Virus record (IMG/VR): IMGVR_UViG_3300028844_005431
Coordinates: 1 to 39,632 of that record
DNA length: 39,632 nucleotides
Origin: a virus
Strand: one strand, 5' to 3'
The position numbers and the translations under genes are program-made. Below the pieces are notes generated by a model that had not been told where the DNA came from, ran no database searches, and saw nothing but the letters and a program-made list of their open reading frames with translations. This document shows, piece after piece, positions 9,378 to 23,999 of this stretch; position 1 is the stretch's first letter; each line of letters starts with the position of its first letter.

Positions 9378-10538
9378 ATGGACAAAATTTATTTAGTAAA
9401 AGATACAATAGATAAGAATGATATAGATAAACTAATTGATTGGTTAAAAACATATCCAAGACTAACTAAAGGACCTGTAACATTAGAACTAGAAGAGAAA
9501 TACTCTAATTGGTTAGGGAGAAAGTATTCTGTATATGTCAACTCAGGCTCTTCTGCTAATCTAATAATGTTATCAGCATTACAGCAAGGTAAATATTTAA
9601 AGAACAATAAGGTGGTAGTACCATCTGTTGCTTGGGCTACTGATTTAGCACCAGTCATGCAGTTGGGATTAAAACCAATTTTGTGTGACTCTAATAAGAG
9701 AGATTTGTCAGTTGATTTGGTACATTTAGAAAAGATATTTAAAGAGGAATCTCCATCAACTCTAATGTTTGTTTCAGTTTTAGGTTTAGTTCCTGAAATG
9801 GGTAAGGTTGTAGAATTATGTGAAAAGTATGATGTTATATTACTAGAGGATACTTGTGAATCAATGGGGTGTAAGTACAAACAAGTTAAGTTAGGAACAT
9901 TTGGTAAGATGTCAAGTTTTTCAACTTATTTTGGTCATCATATTTCTACAATTGAAGGTGGGTTTGTTTCAACTGATGATAAAGATTTATATGATATATT
10001 AATATCAATAAGAGCTCATGGATGGGATAGGGATTTAGATACTGAAAAACAAATTGAGTTACAACGAGATTGGGATGTTTCTACTTTTAATGCACTCTAT
10101 ACTTTTTATTATCAAGGTTTTAATGTCAGAGCTACAGATTTACAGGCATACATAGGTTTAAGTCAAATCGATAAGCTTGATGGTTGGGGTTTGAAAAGAG
10201 AATATAATTATTTAACATATCAAAAATTAGTCAAAAATAATTATTGGAAACCAAGCACAGAACTAAGTGATTTTAATTCTAACTTTGCTTATCCTGTAAT
10301 ACATCCTAACAGAGACAAAATAGTCAAAGAGTTGGAAAAAAATGGTGTTGAGGTTAGACCTATGATATGTGGCTCAATGGGAACTCAACCATTTTATGTA
10401 AAAGAATATGGTAAATTAGAGCTACCTAATGTTACAGAAATTGATAGGTATGGTTTTTATGTACCAAATAATCCACATATAACCGATGACGAAATAGTTT
10501 TTATTTCTAACATAATTAATGGTCAAATAAATGACTAA
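9378..10538 (+). CDS. GDP-4-keto-6-deoxymannose 3-dehydratase-like (ColD/RfbH type), PLP-dependent
   Basis: A 386-residue DegT/DnrJ/EryC1-family protein in which the PLP-binding lysine is replaced by histidine: the segment TYFGHHISTIEGG carries H188 where aminotransferases have lysine. This change is the hallmark of the 3-dehydratases ColD (E. coli numbering also H188) and RfbH, which hold PMP/PLP non-covalently and remove the C-3 hydroxyl. Length and the GHHxSTIEGG wording fit ColD rather than RfbH, which has extra Fe-S cysteines not seen here. NSGSSANL (55-62) binds the cofactor phosphate and LLEDTCES (D158) the pyridine nitrogen. Two GDP-mannose dehydratases later in the locus could supply its substrate. 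Confidence 0.87.
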   Translation: MDKIYLVKDTIDKNDIDKLIDWLKTYPRLTKGPVTLELEEKYSNWLGRKYSVYVNSGSSANLIMLSALQQGKYLKNNKVVVPSVAWATDLAPVMQLGLKPILCDSNKRDLSVDLVHLEKIFKEESPSTLMFVSVLGLVPEMGKVVELCEKYDVILLEDTCESMGCKYKQVKLGTFGKMSSFSTYFGHHISTIEGGFVSTDDKDLYDILISIRAHGWDRDLDTEKQIELQRDWDVSTFNALYTFYYQGFNVRATDLQAYIGLSQIDKLDGWGLKREYNYLTYQKLVKNNYWKPSTELSDFNSNFAYPVIHPNRDKIVKELEKNGVEVRPMICGSMGTQPFYVKEYGKLELPNVTEIDRYGFYVPNNPHITDDEIVFISNIINGQIND

Positions 10539-11043
10539 AAAATTTACAGATAGGAAAATTATTAATGGTGTTTTTGATGGAGTTAAATTAAATCAACCAA
10601 GTTCTTATCAAGATTATCGAGGATATTACTATACGATAAATGATACTGAAGATAACGATGTTGAGTATGTAAAAGATAAGTTAAGCACTTCATCAAAAAA
10701 TGTCTTACGCGGAATACATGGTGATTACAAAAGCACAAAATTAGTAACTTGTGTTCATGGAGAGGTCTATTGTGTTATTGTTGATAATAGAAAAAATTCT
10801 GATACTCATATGAAATGGGCTTGGGAAATACTTAGTGTACACAACAAAAATATTTTAGTATTACCACCTGGCGTAGGATTAAGTTATCTTATAACTAGTG
10901 AAAGTGCTAATATCTTTTATAAATGGGCTTATCCAGGTGGCTATCCCGATGTGGATGATCAATTTACATTGAAATGGAACGATAAAAGTCTAAAAATCTT
11001 TTGGCCTATCAAAGAGCCAATATTACAACCGAGAGATTTATGA
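10531..11043 (+). CDS. RmlC-like sugar epimerase (dTDP-4-dehydrorhamnose 3,5-epimerase family cupin)
   Basis: A 170-residue cupin of the RmlC family. SSKNVLRGIHGD contains H63, matching the general base of RmlC, and STKLVTCVHGEVYCVIVDNR is the conserved second strand pair. The C-terminal half (PPGVGLSYLI, AYPGGYPDVDDQF) is consistent with the rest of the fold, but the usual YP(E)DE ending is altered. Family members epimerise 4-keto-6-deoxy sugars at C-3 and/or C-5. Placed directly after a ColD-like enzyme, it probably acts at C-5 of a 4-keto-3,6-dideoxy sugar. It overlaps the ColD-like gene by 8 bases and the transketolase subunit by 4. Confidence 0.85.
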   Translation: MTKKFTDRKIINGVFDGVKLNQPSSYQDYRGYYYTINDTEDNDVEYVKDKLSTSSKNVLRGIHGDYKSTKLVTCVHGEVYCVIVDNRKNSDTHMKWAWEILSVHNKNILVLPPGVGLSYLITSESANIFYKWAYPGGYPDVDDQFTLKWNDKSLKIFWPIKEPILQPRDL

Positions 11044-11792
11044 TTAAAATATCTAAAGAAATGAGAAGACTCATAGTAAGTGCAGCATATCATGCTAATC
11101 ATGGACATATACCAAGTGCTTTATCCATAGTTGAAATTATGAAAAGTTTTAATCAAGTTGAAACTGAAGATGATGTTATGATTTTAAGTAAAGGGCATGG
11201 ATGCCTAGCTTTATATTCTTTATTAGTTATCCAAGGTCATATTAATGAAAAAGAATTATTGACTTTTGGTAAAAAAGGTAGTAGATTAGGTGGTCATCCA
11301 GATAGAAATAAAGTTGATAAAATTTATGCTTCAACTGGTTCACTTGGTCATGGACTTCCAATTGCTATTGGAACTGCAATTGCAAAAAAAATAATGAAAA
11401 AAAACGGAAAGGTATTTTGTGTTATTGGGGATGGTGAAATAAACGAGGGTTCAATATGGGAATCTATTTTGATAGCTGTTGATAATAAATTAGATAATTT
11501 AATTTGTGTAGTAGACTATAATAAATCACAAATAAGGTCTTTAGAACCAAAACTAAATATTCAAATGTTTGAGTCATTTGGATGTGATGTAATTGAAATT
11601 GATGGGCACGATGTAGACTCTTTAGTACAGGCTATGAAATTAAGTAGTGTAAAAAAACCAAAAGTTATTTTAGCCAATACTGTTAAGGGGAAGGGTATAA
11701 AAGAAATAGAAGATAATATGTTTGCTTGGCACCACCGAGCACCAACTGAAGAAGAATATAAAAAATTCTGTGAGGAAATTTATGAGAGCTGA
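11040..11792 (+). CDS. Transketolase-like enzyme, N-terminal (ThDP pyrophosphate-binding) subunit
   Basis: A 250-residue half-transketolase. The ATG at 11040 overlaps the upstream stop (ATGA), so the frame upstream of it is not used. The ThDP/Mg motif is complete: GDGE (130-133) with the partner N161 in VDYNKSQ. LSKGHG (49-54), GGHPD and STGSLGHGLP (98-107) are also transketolase signatures. It needs the C-terminal partner encoded directly downstream. ThDP enzymes of this type move a two-carbon ketol unit. Here the neighbours are sugar-nucleotide genes, so it may attach a two-carbon branch to a 4-keto sugar instead of serving the pentose phosphate pathway. Confidence 0.9.
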   Translation: MIKISKEMRRLIVSAAYHANHGHIPSALSIVEIMKSFNQVETEDDVMILSKGHGCLALYSLLVIQGHINEKELLTFGKKGSRLGGHPDRNKVDKIYASTGSLGHGLPIAIGTAIAKKIMKKNGKVFCVIGDGEINEGSIWESILIAVDNKLDNLICVVDYNKSQIRSLEPKLNIQMFESFGCDVIEIDGHDVDSLVQAMKLSSVKKPKVILANTVKGKGIKEIEDNMFAWHHRAPTEEEYKKFCEEIYES

Positions 11793-12654
11793 GTTTGCTA
11801 AATTATGTCATGAAGTAGTTCAATCTGATTTAAAATCAGTAGTAATGATAGGTGATATAAGTCATTTTCTTTTAAGAGAAACAGAACAAATTGCACCTGA
11901 CAGATTTTATAATATAGGTATATGTGAGCAATCAATGGTTGGGATGGCTAGCGGTATGGCTATTGAGGGTATGCGACCTATTATTCATACTATTTCTCCC
12001 TTTCTTGTGGAAAGAGCATTTGAACAGATAAAAAATGACATAGGGTATCAGAATACAGAGGTGACAATAGTGACGGTTGGTGGGACTTATGACTACGCTG
12101 ATTTGGGTTGTACACATCATTGTTATGGTGATATTGCTATGATGAGATTAATTCCAAATATGCAAGTGTTTGAACCATCTAGTCCAGTTGAATTTAGAAA
12201 TTTATTTAAAGATACTTGGGGAAATGGCCATCCAAAATATTTTAGATTGACAAAAGAACAACATTCACAGCAGATAGATGTTACGCCTGGAGATTTAGAG
12301 GTAGTTAGAGAATCTAAAGATGGTAGATATGCTTTTGTCACAGGACATATTTTAGATGATGTATTAGAGTCACCGAACATTGGAGTGATTTATGTTCATA
12401 CTTTATCACATATCAATTCGGAATCTAAAAAGTATGTAGGTAAATTGTTAAGAGAATCTAAAAAAGTATATTCTGTTGAAAATCATTTTAAAGTAGGTGG
12501 TTTGGGTGATTTTATAAGTGATACATTTAATGTTAATGTACATCGAATTGGTATGGAAAGAAAATTTCTTACGAGTTATGGTTCTTATGATGATCTTAGA
12601 AGAGAAAGCGCTATGGATAAAAATTCTATATTAGAACAATTGAGGTGGATATAA
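11782..12654 (+). CDS. Transketolase-like enzyme, C-terminal (pyrimidine-binding) subunit
   Basis: A 290-residue partner of the preceding gene. The start at 11782 follows GAGG with 6 bases of spacing; the frame extends upstream to 11722 but without a better start. FYNIGICEQSMVGMASGMA places the catalytic glutamate at E49, which activates the ThDP pyrimidine. The PYR domain continues with FLVERAFEQIKNDIGY and THHCYGDIAMMRLIPNMQVFEPSSP, and a transketolase C-terminal domain follows. Split transketolases are found in archaea and in some secondary sugar pathways. It overlaps the N-terminal subunit by 11 bases, as expected for a 1:1 heteromer. Confidence 0.9.
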   Translation: MRAEFAKLCHEVVQSDLKSVVMIGDISHFLLRETEQIAPDRFYNIGICEQSMVGMASGMAIEGMRPIIHTISPFLVERAFEQIKNDIGYQNTEVTIVTVGGTYDYADLGCTHHCYGDIAMMRLIPNMQVFEPSSPVEFRNLFKDTWGNGHPKYFRLTKEQHSQQIDVTPGDLEVVRESKDGRYAFVTGHILDDVLESPNIGVIYVHTLSHINSESKKYVGKLLRESKKVYSVENHFKVGGLGDFISDTFNVNVHRIGMERKFLTSYGSYDDLRRESAMDKNSILEQLRWI

Positions 12655-13688
12655 TGAACAAATATTTAAAAGAATCAATGGATAAAATAAGTAAAGTTAT
12701 TGGAGCGCCACTTGATGAGTTTAAAGGAAAGACAATTTTAATTACCGGAGCCAATGGTCTGATAGGTGGTTTCTTAACAGATTTTTTTGTTTATTTAAAT
12801 GAAGAATTAAACTTTAATTGTAAGTTGGTTTTAACCAGTCTGAGCTCAGATCCAAAAAGATTAGAAGATGTGATTCATAAAAAATATATTACTTACTATT
12901 CTAGAGATTTAACCAGTGATGCTTGGTTTTTTGATAAAGTAGATTTTTGTTTTTATTGCGCTGGATATGCTCAACCAGGTAAATTTTTAGCTGATGCTGA
13001 TAAAACGTATTCTTTAAATGTTGATGCTATGAGAAGAGTATTTGACTCAGTTTTATCTAATAATCCAACGGCTAAAGGATTATTCATAAGTAGTTCTGAG
13101 GTTTATGCTTTAAACAAAACTGATAAGTCACATCATGAATCGGATGATTTGAGTGTTTACTTATGGCATAAAAGGGTAACATATATTCTTGGTAAAATAG
13201 CTGGAGAATACAATATTCAATTATTAAGTGACAAAGGATACAATGCTAGGTCTGCGAGAGTTTCTCTATGTTATGGACCAGGACATCTTATGAGTGATTC
13301 TCGTGTTATGAGTGAGTTAACTCAAAAAGGAATTGAACAAGAAACTATAAATTTATTTGATGATGGATCTTCATATAGAAAATATCAACACATTTCAGAT
13401 TGTTGTATAATGTTGATAAATATTATTTTAAGAGGTAAATGGCCGGTTTATAATGTGGGTGGTAAGGAAGAAATAACTATATATGATATGGCAAAAATAA
13501 TTGGTGATAAATTTAAAAAACGAGTTGTGAGGGGTAAGGTTAATAATGATGTAGCCGACTCAGCTCCTAAAAAAGTTTCTATATCATTAGATAGATACGA
13601 AGAAGAATTTGGTAATTTTGATTTTACATCATTTGAAGATGGTATGGAAAATTACCTAAATTGGTTTTCAGAAGAACATAAAAAATAG
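12654..13688 (+). CDS. NAD-dependent sugar dehydratase/reductase (extended SDR)
   Basis: A 344-residue extended SDR. The ATG at 12654 sits 6 bases after GAGGTGG, better than the in-frame GTG at 12645. ILITGANGLIGG is the dinucleotide loop, SSSEVYAL the serine motif and Y177-x3-K181 (YILGK) the catalytic pair. The C-terminal half has VSLCYGPGH and YRKYQHISD, typical of nucleotide-sugar epimerases/decarboxylases. It immediately follows the split transketolase, so it may reduce or further process the transketolase product (compare the reductase YerF in yersiniose synthesis). The exact substrate is not deducible. Confidence 0.82.
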   Translation: MNKYLKESMDKISKVIGAPLDEFKGKTILITGANGLIGGFLTDFFVYLNEELNFNCKLVLTSLSSDPKRLEDVIHKKYITYYSRDLTSDAWFFDKVDFCFYCAGYAQPGKFLADADKTYSLNVDAMRRVFDSVLSNNPTAKGLFISSSEVYALNKTDKSHHESDDLSVYLWHKRVTYILGKIAGEYNIQLLSDKGYNARSARVSLCYGPGHLMSDSRVMSELTQKGIEQETINLFDDGSSYRKYQHISDCCIMLINIILRGKWPVYNVGGKEEITIYDMAKIIGDKFKKRVVRGKVNNDVADSAPKKVSISLDRYEEEFGNFDFTSFEDGMENYLNWFSEEHKK

Positions 13689-19244: not shown

Positions 19245-19831
19245 GTTGGACATCAGTAGGTGATTTTGAAACAGATGTTTCACAATATTTTGGAGCAAGT
19301 TACGGTATTGCTATAGATAGTTGCACACATGGCATTGAGTTGTGCTTACGATATCTTGATGTGGATGAATTAATTATACCAAAGAGGACTTATATATCTA
19401 TACCATTTCTTTCTAATAAACTTAATATACCATTAGTGTGGAAGGATGAAAATTGGGAAGATTACTATGAAATAGGTAATACAGGAGTTTATGATGCTGC
19501 TGTTCTTTGGAAAGAAAATAGTTATATACCAAACACATTTATGTGCTTAAGTTTTCAATTTCAAAAACATTTGAGTCTTGGTAGGGGTGGTATGATATTA
19601 ACAGATAATAAAAACGCTTATAATAAACTAAAAAAAATGTCTTATGATGGTAGAGAACCTGATGTGCCTTGGAGAGAACAAAATATAGATACAATAGGGT
19701 ATCATTATTATATGACTCCCGAAACAGCTCAACTAGGACTTGATAAATTACCAAGCGCCATTAAAATCAAACCGAGACAATGGGTAGTTGAAGATTGGCC
19801 AGATTTAACTAAAATGGAGATATTTAAATGA
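19241..19831 (+). CDS. Short DegT/DnrJ/EryC1-family PLP protein
   Basis: A 196-residue protein aligned with the large domain of sugar aminotransferases. The Schiff-base lysine is present (K109 in SFQFQKHLSLGRGGM), as are the cofactor phosphate loop IDSCTHGIEL (25-34), the strand IIPKRTYIS and D85 (YDAA), equivalent to the residue that holds the pyridine nitrogen. Normal members have about 370-390 residues, so the C-terminal small domain is largely missing, and the loop between D85 and K109 is short. Unlike the ColD-like protein it keeps the lysine, so transaminase activity is possible. Overlaps of 4 bases on both sides indicate that the gene is intact as it stands. Confidence 0.8.
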   Translation: MSWTSVGDFETDVSQYFGASYGIAIDSCTHGIELCLRYLDVDELIIPKRTYISIPFLSNKLNIPLVWKDENWEDYYEIGNTGVYDAAVLWKENSYIPNTFMCLSFQFQKHLSLGRGGMILTDNKNAYNKLKKMSYDGREPDVPWREQNIDTIGYHYYMTPETAQLGLDKLPSAIKIKPRQWVVEDWPDLTKMEIFK

Positions 19832-20799
19832 AAAGAAAAGCTTTTATAACGGGTATTGCTGGACAAGATGGTAGTTATCTTGCTGAATTATTATTAGAAA
19901 AAGACTATGATGTATATGGAATAGTAAGAAGAAATTCTACTCCAGAAAATCAACACAATAGAATAGATCATATTGAATCTGATTTAAATTTAGAGTATGG
20001 AGATTTATTAGATGTAAGTTCATTAGAGAGAATGATTAAAGTTATACAACCTAATGAAATATACAATATAGCTGCTCAAAGTCATGTTAGGATTAGCTTT
20101 GATATTCCACAATTTACTGTACAAACAAATGCTCTTGGTTTATTAAATATGCTAGAAGGTTGGAGAAATAACTGTCCTACTGCTAGATTTTATCAAGCAT
20201 CTTCTTCAGAGATGTTTGGTCGTACTGTAGATGAGGATGGTTATCAGAGAGAAACTACAAAGATGGAGCCGACAAGCACTTACGGTTGTACAAAGGTGTT
20301 TGGGTATAATATGGTTAAACATTATCGACATGCTTATGGTTTATTTGGTGCTAATGGTATTTTATTTAATCACGAATCTCCAAGACGAGGTGCTAATTTT
20401 GTTACCAATAAGGTTGTCAAGGCAGCTGTTAGAATTAAATTGGGAATGCAAGATAAATTAGTTTTAGGTAACATGGATGCTTATCGTGATTGGGGACATT
20501 CAAAGGATTATGTTAAGGCTATGCACATGATTATAAATCATAATGTAGCAGACGATTTTGTCTGTGCTACTGGAGTTACAAATTCAGTTCGTGATATGTG
20601 TAAATATGTTTTTGATAAATTGGATTTAAATTATAAAGATTATGTAACACAAAATCCAAAATATATGAGAGCTGAAGAACTAAAGTATCTAAAGGGTGAT
20701 TCTACTAAGATTAGAAAAACTCTTGGATGGAAGCCAAAATATACATTTGAAACCTTGATGGATGATATGATTGAGCATTGGAGAAAATATTATGAATAA
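19828..20799 (+). CDS. gmd: GDP-mannose 4,6-dehydratase (first copy)
   Basis: A 323-residue extended SDR that converts GDP-mannose to GDP-4-keto-6-deoxymannose, the entry step to colitose, fucose, perosamine and rhamnose. GMD landmarks are ITGIAGQDGSYL (7-18), NIAAQSHVRISF, QASSSEMFG (123-131), Y152-x3-K156 in STYGCTK, and LFNHESPRRGANFVT. The usual YPRSPYxxAK is replaced by a PTSTYGCTK form, whereas the copy at 23025 has the canonical wording. It overlaps neighbouring genes on both sides. The product would feed the ColD-like enzyme at 9378. Confidence 0.92.
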   Translation: MKRKAFITGIAGQDGSYLAELLLEKDYDVYGIVRRNSTPENQHNRIDHIESDLNLEYGDLLDVSSLERMIKVIQPNEIYNIAAQSHVRISFDIPQFTVQTNALGLLNMLEGWRNNCPTARFYQASSSEMFGRTVDEDGYQRETTKMEPTSTYGCTKVFGYNMVKHYRHAYGLFGANGILFNHESPRRGANFVTNKVVKAAVRIKLGMQDKLVLGNMDAYRDWGHSKDYVKAMHMIINHNVADDFVCATGVTNSVRDMCKYVFDKLDLNYKDYVTQNPKYMRAEELKYLKGDSTKIRKTLGWKPKYTFETLMDDMIEHWRKYYE

Positions 20800-22027: not shown

Positions 22028-23025
22028 CTAAATTGACCAGAAGGTATGTAATAGGAACTCATGTAATGTGGTTTGAAATCGAAATGTATAATGATTTCAT
22101 AAACGGAATGGTGAATTTATTAGAAACCGTAGAGAATAAAGAGAATGTAACTATTGATTTGTGTTTTAATATGCTACAACACTTTGAAAAAGTTGATACC
22201 AACATGATTAAGAAACATGAGTTGTATATAAAATTTAAAAAAGGTGTTGCTACATTAGAACAAATGGGATTTTGGGTTAACTATGAAGTAAAAGATAAAG
22301 AAGATGAATTTTATTTTCATACTGATTATAGAAGAGATTTGAATTACAACTATTGTAAGAAAGTAGATTATGTAATGTGGGGTGAAACCGACAGTTTCTT
22401 TCCAAGAGAAGCATTTCAAGTGATAGAAACATTGGCTAACTACACGGATGAACAAGGAATACATAAATATCTACTGAGTTTTTCAGATAGAAAAATGTGG
22501 GATGCTAGTTGGGATCCATTAGTTCATGTTGATTATCGAGATGTTAAGTTTATAGATGATGATAACGGACATCTATATACTAATCAAGCTAAATCACAAT
22601 TATCTATAGAAGAGATGAATAAAATAAATGATAGAGCCGAAGATTTTGATTTTTCATATATAACTAACCCAAAAATAAGTGGAGCTTGTTTGGTATTATC
22701 AACGGACTTAATTAAGTTTGGTGTAAACATACCACCATGTATGTTATATAATGACGATGAGGGCTTATCTATAATGTCTCAGAAGTTATTAGGGCAAAAC
22801 TATTTACAGTTTGTATGTCAAAATATATTACATGTTCACGCTAGGAGACATCCACAAAAGAGAATGTATGTTAAGGATGAAGATAATCCACATTCTTTTC
22901 TGAATAAAAAGAATAATAATTTTCAAAAGTTTTTAAAAATGTCAAAAGAAAATATACAGACTCTTGCGACTGGTAATGGAAAATTTAAAGAGTATAACGA
23001 TTTACAACAAATATTGGAGATATGA
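22024..23025 (+). CDS. Probable glycosyltransferase (GT-A like), family not assigned
   Basis: A 333-residue protein. An N-terminal strand RRYVIGTHVMWFEIEMYNDFI is followed by YVMWGETDSFFP, which holds an acidic pair at the place of a DxD motif, and by a KISGACLVLSTDLIKFG segment. A second acidic run, YNDDEGLSIM, lies near the catalytic-base position of GT2 enzymes. I cannot match it to a named family, and the glycosyltransferase call is an inference from these features and its neighbours. It ends on the start region of the second gmd. Confidence 0.5.
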   Translation: MTKLTRRYVIGTHVMWFEIEMYNDFINGMVNLLETVENKENVTIDLCFNMLQHFEKVDTNMIKKHELYIKFKKGVATLEQMGFWVNYEVKDKEDEFYFHTDYRRDLNYNYCKKVDYVMWGETDSFFPREAFQVIETLANYTDEQGIHKYLLSFSDRKMWDASWDPLVHVDYRDVKFIDDDNGHLYTNQAKSQLSIEEMNKINDRAEDFDFSYITNPKISGACLVLSTDLIKFGVNIPPCMLYNDDEGLSIMSQKLLGQNYLQFVCQNILHVHARRHPQKRMYVKDEDNPHSFLNKKNNNFQKFLKMSKENIQTLATGNGKFKEYNDLQQILEI

Positions 23026-23999
23026 TGAAAAAAGCATTAATAACTGGAATTAGTGGACAGGATGGTTCTTTTTTAGCAGACTTTTTGTTAGAAAAAGGAT
23101 ATGAAGTATATGGTATAGAGAGAAGATGCTCTACACCAAATAGAACAAATACTAAACACTTAGAAGGTAGAGTAACATTTCTCAATGGTGATTTAACAGA
23201 TCAAAATTCATTGTTAAGATGTATAAAACAATCTGATCCTGATGAGGTTTATAATTTAGCATCACAATCATTCGTGGGTGAGAGTTGGAATACACCAGAA
23301 CAATCTGGCGATGTTACAGGTCTTGGTGCTCTAAGAATGTTAGAGGCTATTAGAGAATATAATTATATGTATCATCATAAAGATATCAAATATTATCAGG
23401 CATCAACATCTGAAATGTTTGGTAGGATGGAAAACTATGCCAATGAAAATACTTTGTTTTATCCAAGGTCACCCTATGGTGTAGCAAAATTATATGCTCA
23501 TTGGATTACTATAAATTATAGAGAGTCTTATGATATGTTTAATTGTTGTGGTATTCTGTTCAATCATGAATCAGAGCGCCGAGGTGTAGAATTTGTAACT
23601 CGTAAGATCACAGATGGTGTTGCTAAGATACATTTGGGGTTGAAAGACACTATAAAGTTAGGTAACTTGGATGTAAAACGAGATTGGGGATATGCTCCTG
23701 ACTATGTTGAATGTATGTGGAGAATGTTACAGCAAGATGAACCTGATGATTATATAGTAGCTACTGGTAAATTTCATACATTGGGTGATTTTTTAGACAA
23801 ATCCTTTAAAAGTATTGGTGTAGATGATTGGTCAAAATATGTTGTTCAAGATCCAAGGTATATGAGGCCTGCTGATGTATTTTACTTAGCTGGTAATGCT
23901 GATAAAGCTAAATCAAAGTTGGGGTGGAAACCTAAAACATCATTTGAAGGCATGATTGATATTATGGTTAAAAACGATATTCAAAAATATAGGAAATAA
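23025..23999 (+). CDS. gmd: GDP-mannose 4,6-dehydratase (second copy)
   Basis: A 324-residue canonical GMD. Numbering from the upstream ATG (23022): ITGISGQDGSFL (8-19), NLASQSFVGESW, QASTSEMFG (126-134), Y152-x3-K156 in YPRSPYGVAK, and LFNHESERRGVEFVTRK. Of the two adjacent ATGs, 23025 is preferred because GGAGA (23016-23020) is then 4 bases away rather than 1. Compared with the copy at 19828 it has an N-terminal half with more of the classical GMD signature, so this may be the main catalyst. A single-gene interval of other enzymes separates the two copies, and their divergence argues against a recent duplication. Confidence 0.93.
   Translation: MKKALITGISGQDGSFLADFLLEKGYEVYGIERRCSTPNRTNTKHLEGRVTFLNGDLTDQNSLLRCIKQSDPDEVYNLASQSFVGESWNTPEQSGDVTGLGALRMLEAIREYNYMYHHKDIKYYQASTSEMFGRMENYANENTLFYPRSPYGVAKLYAHWITINYRESYDMFNCCGILFNHESERRGVEFVTRKITDGVAKIHLGLKDTIKLGNLDVKRDWGYAPDYVECMWRMLQQDEPDDYIVATGKFHTLGDFLDKSFKSIGVDDWSKYVVQDPRYMRPADVFYLAGNADKAKSKLGWKPKTSFEGMIDIMVKNDIQKYRK

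Follow-up and report, generated by a model that had tools for sequence, protein, structure and literature searches.

What do five overlapping genes for a dehydratase, an epimerase, a two-part transketolase (TK) and a short-chain dehydrogenase (SDR) make in a marine phage? They lie in a 39.6 kb IMG/VR virus record (39,632 nucleotides; the window). A sequence-only reading had likened them to yersiniose synthesis, with 3-dehydration of a 4-keto-6-deoxy sugar, two-carbon addition by a two-subunit TK and reduction, on a GDP-sugar, and had presented this as a five-gene phage module. That reading was partly supported: the 3-dehydratase, the GDP carrier and an altered TK pocket found support, but phage specificity and a five-gene core did not, and the RmlC-like protein had been given no role. 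The block probably builds a rare eight-carbon branched sugar by means of a modified two-part TK.

The five-gene block and its relatives

ORF prediction, family matches and dN/dS bore out the five overlapping genes at 9378–13688, which lie on the same strand, are intact and contain no internal stops; successive genes overlap by 8, 4, 11 and 1 bases. The true start of the N-terminal TK half (TKN) is the ATG at 11040, a listed TTG at 11001 lying 39 bases upstream, and the C-terminal half (TKC) and SDR start with ATG at 11782 and 12654, respectively. Against the block of locus L007 (70–89% amino acid identity), dN/dS was 0.07–0.18 for each gene; purifying selection acts on all five. Elsewhere, the left end of the window carries a gp44-like fragment of a clamp loader that matches T4-like phages, and ClpP-like, deformylase-like and UvdE-like ORFs were recognised from translations judged by eye.

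Table 1. Genes of the block and GDP-mannose 4,6-dehydratase (GMD) genes of the window
Feature	Length (aa)	Position	Strand	Supporting match
ColD-like PLP/PMP-dependent GDP-4-keto-6-deoxysugar 3-dehydratase (predicted)	386	9378..10538	+	Pfam DegT, E 8e-60
RmlC-like cupin epimerase of GDP-4-keto sugar (predicted)	170	10531..11043	+	dTDP_sugar_isom, 4e-31
Split transketolase, N-terminal (diphosphate-binding) half, TKN	250	11040..11792	+	Pfam Transketolase_N, 1e-26
Split transketolase, C-terminal (pyrimidine-binding and C-terminal) half, TKC	290	11782..12654	+	Pfam Transket_pyr, 1e-25
Extended SDR, proposed hydroxyacetyl-branch reductase	344	12654..13688	+	Epimerase, 2e-22
GDP-mannose 4,6-dehydratase 1, likely GDP-4-keto-6-deoxymannose source		19828..20799	+	TIGR01472 gmd, 371 bits
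GDP-mannose 4,6-dehydratase 2		23022..23999	+	TIGR01472 gmd, 404 bits

Queried with TKN alone, the genome collection gave no matches, and with a TKC profile it gave 80 cellular loci; isolate phage records held only distant matches to TKC and no SDR relative exceeding 24.1% identity. Where a close TKC was full-length (75 loci), TKN adjoined in 72 and SDR was present in 60; after dereplication, TKN-TKC-SDR occurred in 52 of 65 loci, viral and cellular. The identical five-gene order does recur in L007, with near-identical copies in L002 and L003, but the core of the module is TKN-TKC-SDR and not all five genes. Nor is the module phage-specific, being common in bacteria and archaea. An Azospirillum plasmid with a methyltransferase and a TK pair of the family was not counted as a full module, because its SDR match is weak. 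No description of such a module was found in the open literature, a body without most subscription journals, nor did any carrier turn up whose polysaccharide structure is known.

Several loci add ColD, RmlC, Fcl and GMD to the core in independent gene orders, and no fewer than five orders link ColD to TK-SDR. Among the 65 dereplicated loci, ColD (a count that includes two longer RfbH-type proteins) and a methyltransferase (MTx) occurred together in one, ColD only in 14 and MTx only in 29 (p 4e-4), RmlC and Fcl never occurred together (p 9e-4), and GMD was present in 24/52 SDR-type loci and 0/13 others (p 1e-3), by Fisher tests that ignore descent; supported tree branches give only about four independent contrasts per gene pair, which almost always go the expected way but are too few for significance. 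Genes, conserved linkage and catalytic residues are matters of direct observation in the sequences. The exclusion with ColD allows a guess that MTx methylates O3; the matches to its model in a fold search, all generic class I methyltransferases, had TM-scores of about 0.4–0.5.

The ColD-like and RmlC-like proteins

His187 of the ColD-like protein (YFGHHISTIEGG) aligns with ColD His188, the position of the Schiff-base Lys, and His replaces the PLP lysine in the other TK-adjacent ColD-like proteins too, except for one K and one S. Its best PDB relative is ColD itself (2gms, E 6e-53), compared with 2e-33 for the CDP 3-dehydrase 3bcx; the best NCBIfam model is RfbH, with a score far under its cut-off. 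These matches support the proposed 3-dehydratase, and a GDP type nearer to GDP-ColD than to the CDP enzyme E1 (RfbH).

The RmlC-like protein is closest to the Campylobacter jejuni GDP-D-glycero-4-keto-D-lyxo-heptose 3,5-/3-epimerases (8dco, E 6e-41), with which its RGIHGD and YK segments (catalytic His and Tyr region) align, and its best match to an ordinary dTDP-RmlC is 1e-19. GDP, and not CDP, as the predicted sugar carrier is well supported because of this affinity to GDP-4-keto-heptose epimerases rather than to dTDP-RmlC, and the distribution of GMD points the same way. Since the RmlC-like gene alternates with Fcl/ColC-like genes, epimerisation at C5 (or C3/C5) probably belongs to the pathway, a step missing from the original scheme.

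The same enzymes could serve an ordinary 3,6-dideoxysugar route of colitose or HS:5 type, in which GMD, ColD, RmlC and SDR as C4-reductase would yield an unbranched GDP-3,6-dideoxyhexose while the TK pair worked separately. The GDP-3,6-dideoxy-L-ribo-heptose pathway of C. jejuni HS:5 shares the order GDP 4,6-dehydratase, PLP C3-dehydratase and stand-alone C5-epimerase, although its substrate is a heptose, its last enzyme an SDR C4-reductase, and transketolase is absent (PMC10440746). The GDP-L-colitose pathway (GMD, ColD, ColC) likewise shares the GMD and ColD chemistry, whereas the block has RmlC-like, TK and SDR genes instead of a ColC-type epimerase/reductase, and no Fcl-like protein was recognised among the SDR proteins of the window. 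In related phages (L024–L029) an Fcl/ColC-type protein is present, and in L024–L026 and L028 a 74–85% identical ColD stands with Fcl and without TK on the contig, plausibly a natural swap to a colitose-type pathway. SDR, however, tracks the TK pair and not ColD: many TK loci with SDR lack ColD, SDR is absent from the listed ColD+Fcl loci, and L112, L124 and L126 hold both Fcl and SDR. Its nearest PDB relatives, moreover, are not Fcl-type C4-reductases but UDP-xylose synthase (UXS) and a ketose reductase. The unbranched route is unlikely.

The split transketolase and its acceptor pocket

The best PDB relatives of TKN and TKC are 6yak, the split TK of C. hydrogenoformans, and 6yaj, respectively. 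Together with the Pfam matches, they upheld the call of a two-subunit TK encoded in two genes and not a YerE-type enzyme, i.e., a single-chain ThDP flavoenzyme of the decarboxylase superfamily. All ThDP/metal and catalytic residues are present in the window pair (TktA numbering: D155, N185, E411, H26, H66, H100, H261 and H473) and are nearly invariant across 51 SDR-type loci.

The acceptor contacts differ. In TktA, R358 is a phosphate ligand and R91 is the partner of D469 in acceptor binding. Only R358 is kept in the window TKC, where H461 is replaced by G, D469 by L and R520 by K, and S385 is not conserved; in the SDR-type family D469 is L and H461 is G in 50/50, R520 is never R, and R91 is lost in 51 loci, the columns of D469, H473 and R91 being surer than those of S385 and R520, which fall in gapped stretches of the alignment. 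The housekeeping TKs that these genomes also encode, whether split or not, retain S385, H461, D469 and R520, and DXS shows F/Y at H100; the "other" actinobacterial loci, having non-canonical residues, were left out as controls for canonical TKs. Directed change of TktA from phosphorylated to aromatic acceptors likewise altered S385, D469 and R520 (PMC5073344). The comparison supports an acceptor pocket remodelled away from sugar phosphates.

Such a pocket bears on whether the pair is an auxiliary TK of central carbon metabolism, shuffling pentose phosphates during infection, with its place in a glycan cassette being incidental. Such a role has been assigned to viral tkt reads (PMC4053976), and the residues for ThDP binding and ketol transfer are all kept, as is R358. 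Against it stand the loss of D469, R91 and H461, and probably of R520 and S385, throughout the SDR-type family; the separate housekeeping TK that cellular genomes with the module usually encode; and the overlap with nucleotide-sugar genes, an association repeated in many lineages. This is the least probable of the readings considered.

The SDR and the proposed pathway

The closest PDB sequence relative of SDR is the CDP-6-D-glucitol synthase HS5.17 (8v4g/8v4h, about 24% identity). That enzyme, which has no TK partner, acts on the C2 ketone of CDP-6-fructose, reducing a HOCH2-CO- group (PMC10918830). In the AF2 model of SDR (pLDDT 94), helices 3–16 and 18–23 precede the first Rossmann strand, an unusual N-terminal helix common to both enzymes, and the best TM-score among the listed structure matches was 0.86 (8v4h). 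E149, R174, Y177 and K181, the equivalents of Glu140, Arg164, Tyr167 and Lys171, are nearly or fully invariant; the same E, R, Y and K are expected in UXS. Pau7, a known octose ketoreductase, was rejected as a model because it belongs to the aldo-keto reductases.

SDR resembles UXS as much as CDP-6-glucitol synthase. Were it a UXS-like decarboxylase, it would supply an NDP-4-ketopentose to be branched by TK, as proposed for the eurekanate acetyl branch, leaving ColD and RmlC to another sugar. Human UXS (TM 0.80) and EvdS6 are among the top structure matches, SDR has the UXS-like motifs S[ST]SE[VI]Y and YxxxK, and EvdS6 forms a 4-ketopentose en route to a branched sugar (PMC10338323). Yet a UDP-glucose dehydrogenase relative lies near only 2/52 SDR-type loci, compared with 24 for GMD, and the repeated overlap or linkage with ColD, RmlC or Fcl would go unexplained, making this decarboxylase very unlikely.

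The block is best read, with a probability of about 0.6, as a GDP-sugar branching module, for which we infer the reactions, their order, the attachment position and the donor as follows. GMD from elsewhere in the cassette would make GDP-4-keto-6-deoxy-D-mannose, the ColD-like enzyme would remove its C3 hydroxyl, and the RmlC-like cupin would epimerise C5, beside the C4 ketone; these three steps have a precedent in the GDP chemistry of C. jejuni HS:5 (PMC10440746). TKN-TKC would then move a hydroxyacetyl group from a ketol donor to the C4 ketone, which would become a tertiary alcohol, and SDR would use NAD(P)H to reduce the ketone of the branch. The predicted product, a branched octose that would go into a phage-encoded glycan, is a GDP-linked 4-C-(1,2-dihydroxyethyl)-3,6-dideoxyhexose.

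Aldehydes are the normal acceptors of transketolases. The pair might act on another electrophile, e.g., an aldehyde made by a different oxidoreductase of the cassette, and so give a chain-extended and not a C4-branched sugar; the window contains additional oxidoreductases. The C4 ketone of a GDP-sugar, however, is where every enzyme that recurs beside TK acts, and the most frequent neighbour families include no recurring oxidase or C6 dehydrogenase, so that chain extension appears quite unlikely.

Some observations count against branching itself. Many related loci carry an Fcl whose reductase and epimerase residues are complete and which could act on the C4 ketone, reducing it ahead of the TK step; SDR shares only about 24% identity with CDP-6-glucitol synthase, and the phosphate ligand R358 is kept. 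Loss of reductase residues in FclB beside TK, tried as a pointer to step order, does not discriminate, because Ser (or equivalent), Cys, Tyr and Lys are retained with few odd exceptions.

Among known systems, yersiniose A synthesis (RfbF/G/H-type genes, YerE and a reductase) shares 3-dehydration of a 4-keto-6-deoxy sugar, ThDP-dependent C2 addition at C4 and branch reduction, but it is CDP-linked and YerE, a single-chain decarboxylase-type flavoenzyme, transfers acetyl from pyruvate, whereas the block is GDP-linked, has an extra epimerase and a split TK predicted to transfer hydroxyacetyl. The two-subunit alpha-keto-acid dehydrogenase type enzymes of avilamycin, paulomycin and kibdelomycin also place C2 units on keto sugars with ThDP; they belong to another superfamily branch and take acetyl from pyruvate. 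The claim that a TK-built branched sugar in a phage would be new holds for glycans and phages but not in general, because split-gene TKs had already been proposed to add hydroxyacetyl to keto sugars in miharamycin and amipurimycin (PMC12247030). These are Streptomyces nucleoside antibiotics with an acceptor other than GDP-4-keto-3,6-dideoxyhexose, and the likeness is drawn from their published description; TK ketone carboligation has been proposed in 13 cases, all Streptomyces antibiotics, and in vitro demonstration has yet to be made (PMC12247030).

Related gene sets in many viruses and bacteria support a sugar-branching use of an enzyme usually seen as part of ordinary carbon metabolism. The balance tips slightly towards a widespread split-TK family of phages, bacteria and archaea repurposed to place hydroxyacetyl on the C4 ketone of GDP-4-keto-6-deoxy sugars, yielding dihydroxyethyl-branched octoses in a combinatorial way, with either ColD or methyltransferase and either RmlC or Fcl; the window would encode the 3,6-dideoxy version. 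These paired alternatives render the pathway order directly testable. If the reading is true, transketolases would have another natural function beyond Streptomyces antibiotics, namely the carboligation of ketones on nucleotide sugars, and would offer many candidates for chiral tertiary alcohol synthesis with a hydroxyacetyl donor. A class of branched octoses would be predicted in bacterial and phage glycans, and some viral "transketolase" genes that have been assigned an auxiliary role in pentose-phosphate metabolism may instead belong to glycan synthesis.

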